From Pseudomonas silvicola (lineage in GTDB: Bacteria; Pseudomonadota; Gammaproteobacteria; Pseudomonadales; Pseudomonadaceae), in NCBI RefSeq assembly GCF_026651855.1, contig NZ_CP093280.1, positions 7,090,501-7,154,500 of the forward strand: a DNA stretch of 64,000 bases, written 5' to 3'. This document shows positions 35,361-62,032 of the stretch, in pieces (within the stretch, counting starts at the first letter, position 1; every line of letters starts with the position of its first letter). Position numbers and translations under genes: made by a program. The notes under the pieces were generated by a model that saw only the letters and a program-made list of their open reading frames with translations, was not told where the DNA came from and did not search any database.

Positions 35361-36863
35361 TCAGGCCTGCGGGCGCATGTGCGGGAACAGGATGACGTCG
35401 CGGATCGACGGCGAGTTGGTCAGCAGCATCACCAGGCGGTCGATGCCGATGCCTTCACCGGCCGTTGGCGGCATGCCATATTCCAGCGCGCGGACGAAGT
35501 CGGCATCGAAGTGCATGGCTTCGTCGTCACCGGCGTCCTTGTCGGCCACCTGGGCCATGAAGCGCTCGGCCTGGTCTTCCGCGTCATTCAACTCGGAGTA
35601 GGCGTTGGCAATTTCACGGCCGCCGATGAACAGCTCGAAACGGTCGGTGACGTTCGGGTTGTCGTCGTTGCGACGGGCCAGCGGCGACACTTCGAACGGG
35701 TACTGGGTAATGAAGTGCGGCTGCTCCAGCTTGTGCTCGACCAGCTCTTCGAAAATCATCACCTGCAGTTTGCCCAGGCCTTCGAAGCCCAGCACCTTGG
35801 CGCCGGCTTTCTTGGCGATTTCACGGGCCTTGTCGATGTCGGTCAGGTCAGCGGCGGTCAGTTCCGGGTTGTACTTGAGGATCGAGTCGAATACCGACAG
35901 GCGCACGAACGGCTCGCCGAAATGGAACACCTTGTCGCCGTAAGGCACGTCGGTGGTCCCCAGGACCAGTTGGGCCAGCTCGCGGAAGAGCTCCTCGGTC
36001 AGGTCCATGTTGTCTTCGTAGTCGGCGTGGGCCTGGTAGAACTCGAGCATGGTGAACTCGGGGTTGTGCCGGGTCGAAACGCCTTCGTTACGGAAGTTGC
36101 GGTTGATCTCGAAGACTTTCTCGAAACCACCGACCACCAGGCGCTTGAGGTACAGCTCCGGGGCGATACGCAGGAACATCGGCATGTCCAGCGCATTATG
36201 GTGGGTTTCGAACGGCTTGGCCGCCGCGCCACCCGGAATGGTCTGCAGCATCGGCGTTTCCACTTCCAGGAAGTCACGCTTCATCAGGAAGCTGCGGATG
36301 TGGGCGATGACCTGCGAACGCACGCGGAAGGTCTGGCGCACGTCTTCGTTGACGATCAGGTCGACGTAACGCTGGCGGTAGCGCTGTTCGGTGTCGGACA
36401 GGCCGTGGTGCTTGTCCGGCAGCGGGCGCAGCGACTTGGTCAGCAGGCGCACGTTGGTCATTTCCACGTACAGGTCACCCTTGCCCGAACGGGCCAGGGT
36501 GCCTTCGGCGGCGATGATGTCGCCCATGTCCCAGGTTTTCACCGCGGCCAGGGTTTCTTCCGGCAAGGTCTTGCGGTTGACGTAGACCTGGATGCGACCG
36601 GTCATGTCCTGGATCACCATGAACGAGCCACGGTTGAGCATGATGCGACCGGCAACCTTGACCGGAATGGCCAGGCCTTCCAGCTCTTCCTTGGTCTTGT
36701 CGACGTACTGCTTTTGCAGGTCGGCTGCATAGCTGTCACGGCGGAAGTCATTGGGGAAGGCCTGGCCCTTGGCGCGCTCGGCAGCAAGCTTTTCCTTGCG
36801 CAGGGCGATCAGGGAGTTTTCTTCCTGTTGCAGGGCTTGCGGGTCGAGTTGTTGGTCGCTCAT
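35361..36863 (-). CDS. lysS: Lysyl-tRNA synthetase (class II)
   Basis: A 500-residue class II synthetase charging tRNA-Lys. The N-terminal OB-fold anticodon-binding domain spans ~60-165 ([25 protein letters not shown]). The catalytic core carries motif 1 ([17 protein letters not shown]), motif 2 ([22 protein letters not shown]) and motif 3 ([13 protein letters not shown]). It lies downstream of prfB by 83 bp on the same strand, the arrangement seen in E. coli and in pseudomonads, so it is likely co-transcribed and exposed to effects of the prfB duplication. Confidence 0.98.
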
Positions 36864-36946: not shown

Positions 36947-38026
36947 TTACAGGCCTTGCTTGAGGCTGGCTACCAGGTATTCGTCGATGTCGCCGTCCAG
37001 CACCTTGTCGCAGTCACTGCGTTCGATGTTGGTGCGCAGGTCCTTGATGCGCGAGGCATCCAGTACGTACGAACGAATCTGGTGGCCCCAGCCGATGTCC
37101 GACTTGCTGTCTTCCATGGCCTGGGAGGCGGCGTTGCGTTTCTGCACTTCCTGCTCGTAAAGGCGCGCCCGCAGCATTTTCATGGCGGTGTCCTTGTTCG
37201 CATGCTGGGAACGTTCGTTCTGGCAGCTGACCACGGTGTTGGTCGGCACGTGGGTGATACGAACCGCCGAGTCGGTGGTGTTCACGTGCTGGCCACCGGC
37301 ACCGGAGGAGCGGTAGGTGTCGATGCGCAGGTCCGCGGGGTTGATGTCGATTTCGATGTTGTCATCGATTTCCGGCGACACGAACACGGCCGAGAACGAG
37401 GTGTGGCGGCGGTTGCCCGAGTCGAACGGGCTCTTGCGCACCAGGCGGTGCACGCCGATCTCGGTGCGCAGCCAGCCAAAGGCATACTCGCCCTTGATGT
37501 GCAGCGTGGCGCCCTTGATACCCGCCACTTCACCGGCCGACAGCTCCATGATGGTGGTGTCGAAGCCGCGCTTGTCGGCCCAGCGCAGGTACATGCGCAG
37601 CAGGATGTTGGCCCAGTCCTGGGCTTCGGTACCGCCGGAGCCGGCCTGGATGTCCAGGTAGGCGTTGTTGGCGTCCATATCGCCGCTGAACATGCGACGA
37701 AATTCCAGCTTTTCCAGCGACTCGCGCAGGCGGTCGACTTCTTCGCTGACGTCGGCGACGGCGCCTTCGTCTTCTTCCTCGGCAGCCATCAGCAGCAGGT
37801 CCTTGGCATCGGCCAGGCCCGCGGACATTTCGTCCAGGGTGTCGACGATCTGGGCCAGCAGCGAACGCTCGCGACCCAGGTTCTGCGCATACTCGGGGTT
37901 GTTCCAGACTGCCGGATCTTCAAGCTCGCGGTTGACCTCGGTCAGACGCTCATGCTTTTGATCGTAGTCAAAGATACCCCCGAATGGTTTCGGAGCGCTC
38001 GGACAGGTCCTTGATGCGCGAGGCAT
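36947..38026 (-). CDS. prfB: Peptide chain release factor 2, downstream copy of the duplicated region
   Basis: RF2 terminates translation at UGA and UAA. This open frame from 38026 contains residues [16 protein letters not shown] through the true C-terminus ([17 protein letters not shown]). It includes the SPF anticodon-like tripeptide ([11 protein letters not shown]) and the GGQ catalytic loop ([15 protein letters not shown]). It lacks the authentic N-terminal residues ([13 protein letters not shown]). It can be reached from the genuine start at 39009 only through two programmed frameshifts, or by a weak internal start. The sequence between 37037 and 38003 looks identical, base for base, to 38004-38970. 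Confidence 0.9.
37037..38003. repeat. 967-bp tandem direct repeat, unit 1 (prfB)
   Basis: Unit of 967 bp, apparently identical to 38004-38970, read by eye. Both ends begin with the 13-bp sequence CAGGTCCTTGATG (37037-37049, 38004-38016, 38971-38983), which occurs naturally twice in a single prfB gene and is the junction microhomology. Confidence 0.95.
37967..37982 (-). other. Second programmed +1 frameshift site of prfB
   Basis: On the minus strand CGGGGGTATCTTTGAC: an SD-like GGGGG, then CTT followed by in-frame TGA and C. This is the canonical RF2 autoregulatory frameshift site, here a duplicate copy located inside the coding sequence. Confidence 0.9.
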
Positions 38027-39009
38027 CCAGTACGTACGAACGAATCTGGTGGCCCCAGCCGATGTCCGACTTGCTGTCTTCCATGGCCTGGGAGGCGGCG
38101 TTGCGTTTCTGCACTTCCTGCTCGTAAAGGCGCGCCCGCAGCATTTTCATGGCGGTGTCCTTGTTCGCATGCTGGGAACGTTCGTTCTGGCAGCTGACCA
38201 CGGTGTTGGTCGGCACGTGGGTGATACGAACCGCCGAGTCGGTGGTGTTCACGTGCTGGCCACCGGCACCGGAGGAGCGGTAGGTGTCGATGCGCAGGTC
38301 CGCGGGGTTGATGTCGATTTCGATGTTGTCATCGATTTCCGGCGACACGAACACGGCCGAGAACGAGGTGTGGCGGCGGTTGCCCGAGTCGAACGGGCTC
38401 TTGCGCACCAGGCGGTGCACGCCGATCTCGGTGCGCAGCCAGCCAAAGGCATACTCGCCCTTGATGTGCAGCGTGGCGCCCTTGATACCCGCCACTTCAC
38501 CGGCCGACAGCTCCATGATGGTGGTGTCGAAGCCGCGCTTGTCGGCCCAGCGCAGGTACATGCGCAGCAGGATGTTGGCCCAGTCCTGGGCTTCGGTACC
38601 GCCGGAGCCGGCCTGGATGTCCAGGTAGGCGTTGTTGGCGTCCATATCGCCGCTGAACATGCGACGAAATTCCAGCTTTTCCAGCGACTCGCGCAGGCGG
38701 TCGACTTCTTCGCTGACGTCGGCGACGGCGCCTTCGTCTTCTTCCTCGGCAGCCATCAGCAGCAGGTCCTTGGCATCGGCCAGGCCCGCGGACATTTCGT
38801 CCAGGGTGTCGACGATCTGGGCCAGCAGCGAACGCTCGCGACCCAGGTTCTGCGCATACTCGGGGTTGTTCCAGACTGCCGGATCTTCAAGCTCGCGGTT
38901 GACCTCGGTCAGACGCTCATGCTTTTGATCGTAGTCAAAGATACCCCCGAATGGTTTCGGAGCGCTCGGACAGGTCCTTGATGGTGTTCAGGATCGGGTT
39001 GATTTCCAT
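37968..39009 (-). CDS. prfB: Peptide chain release factor 2, upstream copy with authentic start
   Basis: Starts at ATG 39009 ([24 protein letters not shown]), meets the first in-frame TGA at 38937-38935, and after a +1 shift reads the RF2 body, including the SPF and GGQ motifs. After ...DASRIKDL it runs into a second copy of [11 protein letters not shown] and the second TGA at 37970-37968. Without a second shift the product is 346 residues, with the normal last 29 residues replaced by 11 ([11 protein letters not shown]). With a second shift it is a 686-residue fusion ending at 36947. A single unduplicated gene would give 364 residues, the usual length. Confidence 0.9.
38004..38970. repeat. 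967-bp tandem direct repeat, unit 2 (prfB)
   Basis: Second unit of the head-to-tail duplication, apparently identical to 37037-38003, read by eye. The start-proximal flank (38984 onward, prfB N-terminus) and the distal flank (before 37037, prfB C-terminus) are single copy. Confidence 0.95.
38934..38949 (-). other. First programmed +1 frameshift site of prfB
   Basis: Minus strand CGGGGGTATCTTTGAC after 24 sense codons, the normal position of the RF2 autoregulatory site. When RF2 is scarce the ribosome pauses at UGA, slips on CUU and continues with GAC. Confidence 0.95.
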
Positions 39010-59939: not shown

Positions 59940-60052
59940 TACGGGGCACGATTGCAACGCTTGATCGGGTATGGCATTTTGCGCATCTCAACGGATGAGC
60001 GTTCGACCTTGTGGGTGGACGACAGCCTTCACGCTTCTCTACAGGTTGGTCC

Positions 60053-62032
60053 ATGCACACGACGGCACCCCGCAACGCCTCCGGCTCTGCGCCGGACGAA
60101 ATGTCCCTGGGCGAACTGCTCCTTCGCGTACTGCGTTTCTACCAGCGGTTCGGCCGATTCATCGGCCTGCTGGCGCTGGCCGCAGCGCTGGCCCTGGGCG
60201 CCCTGATCGCCAGTCGCCCGCTCTACAGCGTCACGGCATTGGTGGAAGTCCCCGACATCACCCTTGAAGAATGGCGCCAGGCACAGTCTTTCCTGTGGGA
60301 CCAGCGCTGGGTCGCCCATTCCTTCACCGCCAGCCCGTTGCTGGCTCGCCTGGCCCTGACGCCCGTGTTCTGGAACACCACCGTGCAATATCGCTCGGCC
60401 CTGCGCCGCGACGACGCCCGCGACCTGCCGGCCACCGAATTCCAGAAAACCCGTGGCCTGGGCCTGGAGATGGCCCTGCGGGTCAGGAGCGAGGCCCAGG
60501 CTGGCCAGGACCTGGCCATTCTCACTGATCATATCCGCCAGGCGCTACTGGCCAACAGCGTGATCAGCCTGGTGCGTGACGATGAAAGCGCGCTGGCCCG
60601 ACGCCCGCAATTGCACCTGAGCCTGCTGCAGATCGAGTTCGATATCCAGCAGACGCAGGCGCGCGTGGCCGACATGCGCCAGTTGCTGGACCACTACCCT
60701 GAACTGCGCACCATGGACGCCCATACCGTGGTGTCGGTCACCGACGGCGGCGGCAAATACCTGGGGCCGCTGCCGCAGATCGTCGCGCTGCAAGCCACCA
60801 TTTCCGAATTGCAGGCCAATGCGCGCAAGGTGCGCCATGACCTGGAGCGCCTGGAGTGGACGCAGCGGCTGATCACGGACATCGACCCGACTATCCGGGC
60901 CGCTTCGTCAGGCAGTGAGATTGTCGCCAAACTGCGCGATAACCGTGACGCCCTGCTGGCGCAAAACCCCGATCTACCCGGCCCTGGCCAGGAAGCCAGC
61001 CAGGAAATGGACCTCAAGCTGGCCCAGGCCGAGGCCCGCCAGCAGGCTATCGGCATCAAGACACGCTCAGCCATTTCCAGCACACCGATCACCGCTCGCA
61101 ACCCCACGTGGGTAGGCCTTGGGGTGTTCGTGCTGGTGGCGGGCGTACTGTCATTATCGCTGGGCGCCCACTCGGCCCTGCGCCGCGACGACGCCCGCGA
61201 CCTGCCAGCCACCGAATTCCAGAAAACCCGTGGCCTGGGCCTGGAGATGGCCCTGCGGGTCAGGAGCGAGGCCCAGGCTGGCCAGGACCTGGCCATTCTC
61301 ACTGATCATATCCGCCAGGCGCTGCTGGCCAACAGCGTGATCAGCCTGGTGCGTGACGATGAAAGCGCGCTGGCCCGACGCCCGCAATTGCACCTGAGCC
61401 TGCTGCAGATCGAGTTCGATATCCAGCAGACGCAGGCGCGCGTGGCCGACATGCGCCAGTTGCTGGACCACTACCCTGAACTGCGCACCATGGACGCCCA
61501 TACCGTGGTGTCAGTCACCGACGGCGGCGGCAAATACCTGGGGCCGCTGCCGCAGATCGTCGCGCTGCAAGCCACCATTTCCGAATTGCAGGCCAATGCG
61601 CGCAAGGTGCGCCATGACCTGGAGCGCCTGGAGTGGACGCAACGGCTGATCACGGACATCGACCCGACTATCCGGGCCGCTTCGTCAGGCAGTGAGATTG
61701 TCGCCAAACTGCGCGATAACCGTGACGCCCTGCTGGCGCAAAACCCCGATCTACCCGGCCCTGGCCAGGAAGCCAGCCAGGAAATGGACCTCAAGCTGGC
61801 CCAGGCCGAGGCCCGCCAGCAGGCTATCGGCATCAAGACACGCTCAGCCATTTCCAGCACACCGATCACCGCTCGCAACCCCACGTGGGTAGGCCTTGGG
61901 GTGTTCGTGCTGGTGGCGGGCGTACTGTCATTATCGCTGGGCGCCCACTCGGCCCTGCGCCGCGGCCGCCCCGTGCTGCCCTGGCTGCGCGGCCCCCTGC
62001 GGCGCTGGCTGATCGTCGAGGTGCAGCCATGA
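60053..62032 (+). CDS. Wzz/chain-length-determinant-like protein, internally duplicated
   Basis: A 659-residue membrane protein. TM1 lies near residues 30-50 (RFIGLLALAAALALGALIASRP), followed by a coiled-coil periplasmic region (LQIEFDIQQTQARVADMRQLLDHYP, ISELQANARKVRHDLERLEW). The first C-terminal TM segment (WVGLGVFVLVAGVLSLSLG) is followed by a second complete copy of the 259-residue unit, and then a second TM and a short basic tail. Without the duplication the protein would be 400 residues, normal for Wzz/BcsE-type co-polymerases. With it, the product would have three TM segments. ATG 60053 was chosen by the hydrophobic N-terminus that follows. It may control chain length of the surrounding polysaccharide. 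Confidence 0.82.
   Translation: MHTTAPRNASGSAPDEMSLGELLLRVLRFYQRFGRFIGLLALAAALALGALIASRPLYSVTALVEVPDITLEEWRQAQSFLWDQRWVAHSFTASPLLARLALTPVFWNTTVQYRSALRRDDARDLPATEFQKTRGLGLEMALRVRSEAQAGQDLAILTDHIRQALLANSVISLVRDDESALARRPQLHLSLLQIEFDIQQTQARVADMRQLLDHYPELRTMDAHTVVSVTDGGGKYLGPLPQIVALQATISELQANARKVRHDLERLEWTQRLITDIDPTIRAASSGSEIVAKLRDNRDALLAQNPDLPGPGQEASQEMDLKLAQAEARQQAIGIKTRSAISSTPITARNPTWVGLGVFVLVAGVLSLSLGAHSALRRDDARDLPATEFQKTRGLGLEMALRVRSEAQAGQDLAILTDHIRQALLANSVISLVRDDESALARRPQLHLSLLQIEFDIQQTQARVADMRQLLDHYPELRTMDAHTVVSVTDGGGKYLGPLPQIVALQATISELQANARKVRHDLERLEWTQRLITDIDPTIRAASSGSEIVAKLRDNRDALLAQNPDLPGPGQEASQEMDLKLAQAEARQQAIGIKTRSAISSTPITARNPTWVGLGVFVLVAGVLSLSLGAHSALRRGRPVLPWLRGPLRRWLIVEVQP
60394..61170. 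repeat. 777-bp tandem direct repeat, unit 1 (wzz-like gene)
   Basis: Unit of 777 bp (259 codons) repeated at 61171-61947. Both junctions lie at the 17-bp sequence CTCGGCCCTGCGCCGCG (60394-60410, 61171-61187, 61948-61964). The two units differ at four positions: 60430/61207, 60547/61324, 60736/61513, 60865/61642, all third-codon A/G changes that are silent. Confidence 0.95.
61171..61947. repeat. 777-bp tandem direct repeat, unit 2 (wzz-like gene)
   Basis: Second unit, 99.5% identical by my count to 60394-61170, with no amino acid difference. All four differences fall in the first half of the unit (61207-61642). Confidence 0.95.

Follow-up and report, generated by a model that had tools for sequence, protein, structure and literature searches.

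The doubled prfB gene

The window analyzed here, a 64,000-nucleotide stretch of the Pseudomonas silvicola genome, contains on its minus strand a prfB reading unit (36947..39009), coding for RF2, which starts with an ATG at 39009, ends with a TAA at 36949-36947 and would span 686 codons if both of its +1 frameshifts were made. Within this unit, the segments 37037-38003 and 38004-38970 are identical at 967 of 967 positions, with no mismatches. The perfect 967-bp tandem duplication at 37037-38970 reported in a preliminary description of this DNA is exactly as first noted, coordinates included. At prfB, identity at a period of 967 bp extends over 980 bp, that is, 13 bp are common to the copies beyond the unit. 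The 13-mer CATCAAGGACCTG, which codes for IKDL near each end of RF2, is found in three identical instances on the minus strand: at the start of the unit, in the N-terminal IKDL (38971..38983), at the novel junction, where the C-terminal IKDL is joined to the N-terminal SERSET (38004..38016), and after the unit, in the C-terminal IKDL (37037..37049). The locus thus has the hallmarks of a head-to-tail duplication, with identical copies and a short direct repeat at the start, the junction and the end.

On the minus strand, the ATG is followed by 24 codons, the sequence CGGGGG TAT CTT TGA C and the RF2 body up to DASRIKDL; then come 11 residues, a second CGGGGG TAT CTT TGA C and another RF2 body, this one with the normal end. 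Accordingly, the upstream (5') copy of the unit (38004..38970) is without the last 29 RF2 codons, and the downstream (3') copy (37037..38003) continues into the normal RF2 C-terminus. Both copies score above the curated cut-off of the TIGR00020 model (370 bits), the 3' copy with 495.2 bits and the 5' copy with 459.7 bits. The PCRF and RF-1 domains are found in a 359-aa frame of the 3' copy and in a 275-aa frame of the 5' copy, the latter starting inside PCRF. When the best 80 of 589 loci are considered, the top-scoring named hits for this RF2 belong to Pseudomonas, with up to 94% identity. The gene downstream of prfB (35361-36863) resembles lysS when read by eye, and lysS likewise comes after prfB in E. 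coli.

Frameshift sites and predicted products

The two +1 frameshift sites, at 38935..38949 (minus strand; stop codon 38937-38935) and 37968..37982 (minus strand; stop codon 37970-37968), are identical in sequence, and both TGA codons lie in the same context. Compared with the characterized P. fluorescens site and with 71 scored relatives, each has the full set of elements, namely, a Shine-Dalgarno-like run of G, one spacer codon, CUU UGA with a C in the fourth position, and a downstream frame starting with GAC. Both of the sites originally described, with their upstream GGGGG, are therefore intact. The accompanying phase argument, that a unit of length 1 mod 3 carrying a +1 site leaves the reading phase unchanged from one copy to the next, is also correct: the shift falls after the first IKDL and ahead of the second, so that phase is kept, and the 686-codon frame reads through with both shifts.

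The predicted products are 24 aa without a shift, 346 aa with the first shift only and 686 aa with both shifts; translation bore out the previously proposed lengths of the two larger products as well as the 11-residue tail of the 346-mer. The 5' copy is 29 residues short at the C-terminus of RF2, and of the two RF2 bodies in the 686-mer, the C-terminal one is complete. Across 79 sequences, the lost residues include RT, VLDG and the A, S, L, K, G and L of ASLKQGL, all conserved at 0.95-1.00. Judging by this conservation, the 346-mer, which has none of these residues, is probably, but not certainly, weak, given that the lost 29 residues are, on average, less conserved than the RF2 body (0.72 vs 0.80, the same 79 sequences).

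An ATG at 38026, overlooked in the preliminary description, opens a frame of 359 codons (36947..38026, minus strand) that is already in the +1 phase, spans the whole RF2 body and contains both RF2 domains. Internal initiation at this codon would yield a 359-residue RF2 (19 foreign residues followed by residues 25-364) that requires no frameshift and so escapes autoregulation. In P. fluorescens SBW25, bypassing the internal stop is known as a means of compensation; passages of one study describe 1-nt deletions in prfB with this effect (PMC13245932). Like the duplication described here, these deletions are structural changes that alter the number of shifts needed, but they abolish the shift whereas the duplication adds a second one (same passages of PMC13245932). 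We consider this escape improbable for the double gene: by eye, no Shine-Dalgarno sequence is evident in the 20 nt upstream of the 38026 ATG.

Distribution of the double gene

The double prfB occupies one place in its own 8.65-Mb genome, where the sole other match is the RF1 gene (187 bp, 76%); a search of the whole 8.65 Mb revealed no dispersed second copy of prfB. Among 341 other genomes, 339 have one RF2-level match and two have none. Two matches above 470 bits were found only in the window's own genome in a scan of 115 genomes, and in none of the 114 others; in a same-genus scan of 298 genomes (E<=1e-140; 70 genomes common to both sets), the window's own genome again gives two matches, compared with one in 295 others and none in two. 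At the thresholds of these scans, a second copy lacking much of its length would be missed. In E. coli, a match was detected in 5,375 of the 5,426 complete genomes, at one place each, and the rest have none. No long direct repeat is present in the prfB locus in any of 109 loci from other genomes, and the nearest relative found (G330, 6.4 Mb) has a single RF2 match, with an RF2 body that is 100% identical. Thus, no double prfB was found outside its own genome in these scans. The literature on prfB includes no report of a tandem prfB among the matches listed, and the authors of a 2021 paper state in one passage that they know of no bacteria in which prfA or prfB is duplicated in the manner of tRNA genes (PMC8789281). 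As to an origin from a plasmid or a phage, no close match was detected: RF2-like matches on plasmids have at most 60-80% identity, and one phage match has 87.9%.

Other tandem duplications and the question of an assembly artefact

The prfB duplication belongs to a larger set. In 2.064 Mb of the same genome (100 stretches of 20 kb plus the window), we identified 11 head-to-tail duplications, all of them in the first 1.664 Mb sampled and none in the last 0.4 Mb, counting those with a period of at least 700 bp and an identity of at least 98.7%, thresholds that were set after seeing the data. This definition dropped 14 of 25 tandem pairs, with periods below 700 bp (several in multi-copy arrays), and three pairs with about 90% identity; four long repeats that are at the edge of a stretch or non-adjacent (in L182, L188, L191 and L193) were not counted. 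There were no such duplications in 1.468 Mb of control sequence, which consisted of 0.8 Mb from 11 relatives (ten assembled in one contig, one in four) and 0.668 Mb of prfB loci. Under equal rates, the chance of 11 vs 0 is 0.0027, or about 0.007 without the window and its two duplications, and extrapolation gives about 46 such duplications genome-wide.

The second duplication in the window, missed in the preliminary description, is located on the plus strand at 60394..61980, has a period of 777 bp and is in frame within a 673-codon ORF (60011-62032). Its copies differ by four substitutions, all synonymous, and share 17 bp of homology at the junction. Its protein has no match over the Pfam cut-off, and, of 66 other genomes, a single one matches this region over more than a short stretch, at 68%, so that sharing of this duplication with relatives is uninformative. 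The nine further kilobase duplications, which are also head-to-tail with short junction homologies, are at L119 5215-6651, L119 14862-16685, L120 15137-19361, L149 4595-7001, L183 17197-18709, L201 16343-18235, L211 11371-14288, L212 5323-7461 and L212 11654-13131 (positions within the sampled stretches). G330 has a single copy of L212 11654, which is among the two most diverged: two stretches of the query match the same 746 bp there. Its neighbor likewise lacks a second copy in that genome. Four of the 11 duplications are each within a single gene; by our reading, five of the other seven create a fused ORF at the joint. Matches of the proteins encoded there include a TonB-dependent receptor, a GntR-aminotransferase regulator, DotU, an ABC transporter and a TRCF domain, among others, with no functional theme seen among the 11; prfB is the one inside a gene known to be essential elsewhere.

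These duplications bear on the possibility that the cell has a single prfB and that the assembly or gap-closing software, misled by a 13-bp match, entered 967 bp twice at this locus and made similar errors elsewhere in the genome. The doubt is serious. RF2 is essential where it has been studied, and a perfect 967-bp tandem repeat should collapse readily in a recA-positive cell such as this one, in which recA is present with an open frame; the genome is, moreover, flagged as 8.04% contaminated. Such an error would also fit the occurrence of duplications in this assembly and not in the control sequence, as well as the absence of differences between the copies in 7 of the 11 duplications, prfB included. 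Exact homology at the junction amounts to 9-17 bp in 8 of the 11 and is 13 or 14 bp in six, which could reflect a seed length. However, other homologies are 9 and 17 bp long, and the remaining three junctions have 0-1 bp of exact homology beside a match of 6-9 bp that, by eye, ends at a mismatch or a 1-nt gap, so that no single word length fits the junctions; the periods, too, are spread from 713 to 2106 bp.

Furthermore, four of the duplications have diverged copies, with 1, 2, 4 and 4 substitutions and no indels inside the unit. Nine of these 11 substitutions are synonymous, all nine at third codon positions (p=0.0014 vs one third), a pattern that is a mark of evolution in cells and so disfavors a pure assembly error. 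A mixed-strain assembly could give diverged copies but would not explain the short homologies at the joints. For prfB itself, the copies of which do not differ, the divergence argument rests on the other duplications only. With the 13-bp junction homology and ten similar duplications, four of them with diverged copies, an artefact becomes less likely, and we regard it as an unlikely explanation, albeit one with appreciable weight; on the strength of these comparisons, the prfB duplication is quite likely to be real.

A variant compatible with a real duplication is that the culture was mixed, part of the cells carrying the double gene and part a single prfB restored by RecA recombination, which would supply normal RF2. 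An open recA and the ease with which perfect 967-bp direct repeats recombine agree with this tentative scenario, for which we see some chance, but the assembly contains one arrangement only.

Proposed origin of the prfB duplication

Taking the duplication as real, a single-copy prfB would have been duplicated in tandem by recombination or replication slippage between its two CATCAAGGACCTG 13-mers, very recently; the double state would be tolerated and should revert by RecA recombination. A very recent, strain-specific duplication of this kind, with RF2 made mainly as the 686-mer and the double gene tolerated, is the explanation that we favor, as a reasonably probable one. Of 71 scored relatives with a single-copy, 364-codon prfB (72 were tried), 8 carry identical N-terminal and C-terminal 13-mers, and in the others the two differ by one to five bases; some relatives that lack the duplication thus have the substrate on which a short-repeat duplication could act. 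Defects in recA or mutS are not supported as a cause since both genes are present with open frames, and a missing prfA (RF1), which could have been a reason for more RF2, is rejected, given that prfA is present with an open frame as well.

Microhomology-mediated tandem duplication is a general class of rearrangement in bacteria. Like members of this class, the prfB duplication has its copies arranged head-to-tail, with a short direct repeat at their boundaries, and is lineage-specific; unlike them, it lies wholly inside an essential gene and holds a frameshift site, such that the phase at the junction and the +1 shift must both agree. All four single-gene duplications keep the frame (942, 732, 777 and, with the +1 shift, 967 bp for prfB). 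Nevertheless, the kept frame is not evidence of selection: in the sampled DNA (which included 76 of the 101 stretches of the window's own genome), 493 of the 579 (85%) same-gene direct repeats of at least 11 bp and 600-2200 bp apart are separated by a multiple of 3, by coding phase alone.

This result bears on the part of the preliminary description according to which the RF2 level would control the length of RF2 at a second point. Such control is a formal consequence of the sequence, but a selected device is unsupported, the frame being expected for such repeats and the arrangement absent from every other genome examined. Two serial sites might steepen RF2 autoregulation, or the tandem protein might have a new role. 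In favor of this, neither site is damaged and phase is preserved, and, if only the double-shift product works, which is an assumption of the model, output would depend on the square of the shift probability. Yet 85% of comparable repeat pairs keep the frame anyway, the copies show no differences, the arrangement is absent from the other genomes examined, and passages on P. fluorescens SBW25 report that complete loss of prfB autoregulation had no detectable cost under the conditions tested (PMC13245932). A selected device is thus very improbable, and neither conservation nor divergence lends support to the second control point, which is a formal possibility. The double prfB appears to be one among several small, recent duplications that this strain carries, not a dedicated means of control.

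Predicted production and regulation of RF2

The prfB gene of P. fluorescens SBW25, as given in passages of PMC13245932, has an internal stop after 24 codons, with CGG GGG, a UAU spacer and CUU UGA C, as is the case here, but one site and one gene body, both of which occur here twice in series. In the same passages, removal of the stop results in a more than twofold gain, which suggests a single-site frameshift frequency somewhat under one half. In the double gene, the main source of RF2 activity would be the 686-residue tandem protein, made by way of two successful +1 shifts, and negative feedback would raise frameshifting, keeping RF2 activity near two thirds of normal. A toy feedback model, in which the shift probability is 1/(1+RF2/K) and only the 686-mer is active, gives 56-70% of the wild-type RF2 activity for single-site frequencies of 0.25-0.5. 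Under this model, the double gene is plausibly tolerated through the autoregulation already in place.

A stronger loss of frameshifting slows growth of SBW25 and is compensated in rsmA, rsmH, rplI or prfB, according to passages of PMC13245932. In the genome studied here, rsmA, rsmH and rplI are present with open frames, so at the level of open frames there is no sign of adaptation to low RF2. A lineage with an unusually high rate of kilobase tandem duplication at 9-17 bp repeats in which RF2 functions as a covalent tandem dimer, its synthesis taking two RF2-sensitive frameshifts in series and giving a steeper feedback loop, is a more far-reaching proposal to which we give little credence. Should the duplication be real, this strain would reveal whether cells survive on a tandem RF2 that depends on two serial frameshifts, and to what extent autoregulation compensates for damage to an essential gene. 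Taken together, the short-repeat tandem duplications in the assembly are a more general, and perhaps more interesting, finding than prfB alone; if real, they would lend themselves to the study of how frequently bacteria generate and retain such copies.

Additional features of the assembly

Several other features of this genome were observed in the course of the analysis. Long near-identical direct repeats at the edge of a stretch (L188 1-6451, L193 1-3838 and L182 10761-20000) may be larger tandem duplications. A 25-bp word at L212 6264-6288 and 7325-7349 has many near-identical matches in G330 and in another relative, G129, and is perhaps REP-like. The genome, flagged for contamination as mentioned above, is larger than that of G330 (8.65 vs 6.4 Mb). 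Contigs C2 (952,764 bp) and C3 (84,880 bp) have a sampled GC content of 0.51-0.56, compared with mostly 0.57-0.66 on the chromosome, and C2 gives, at its start, matches of 77-81% to Pantoea plasmids.
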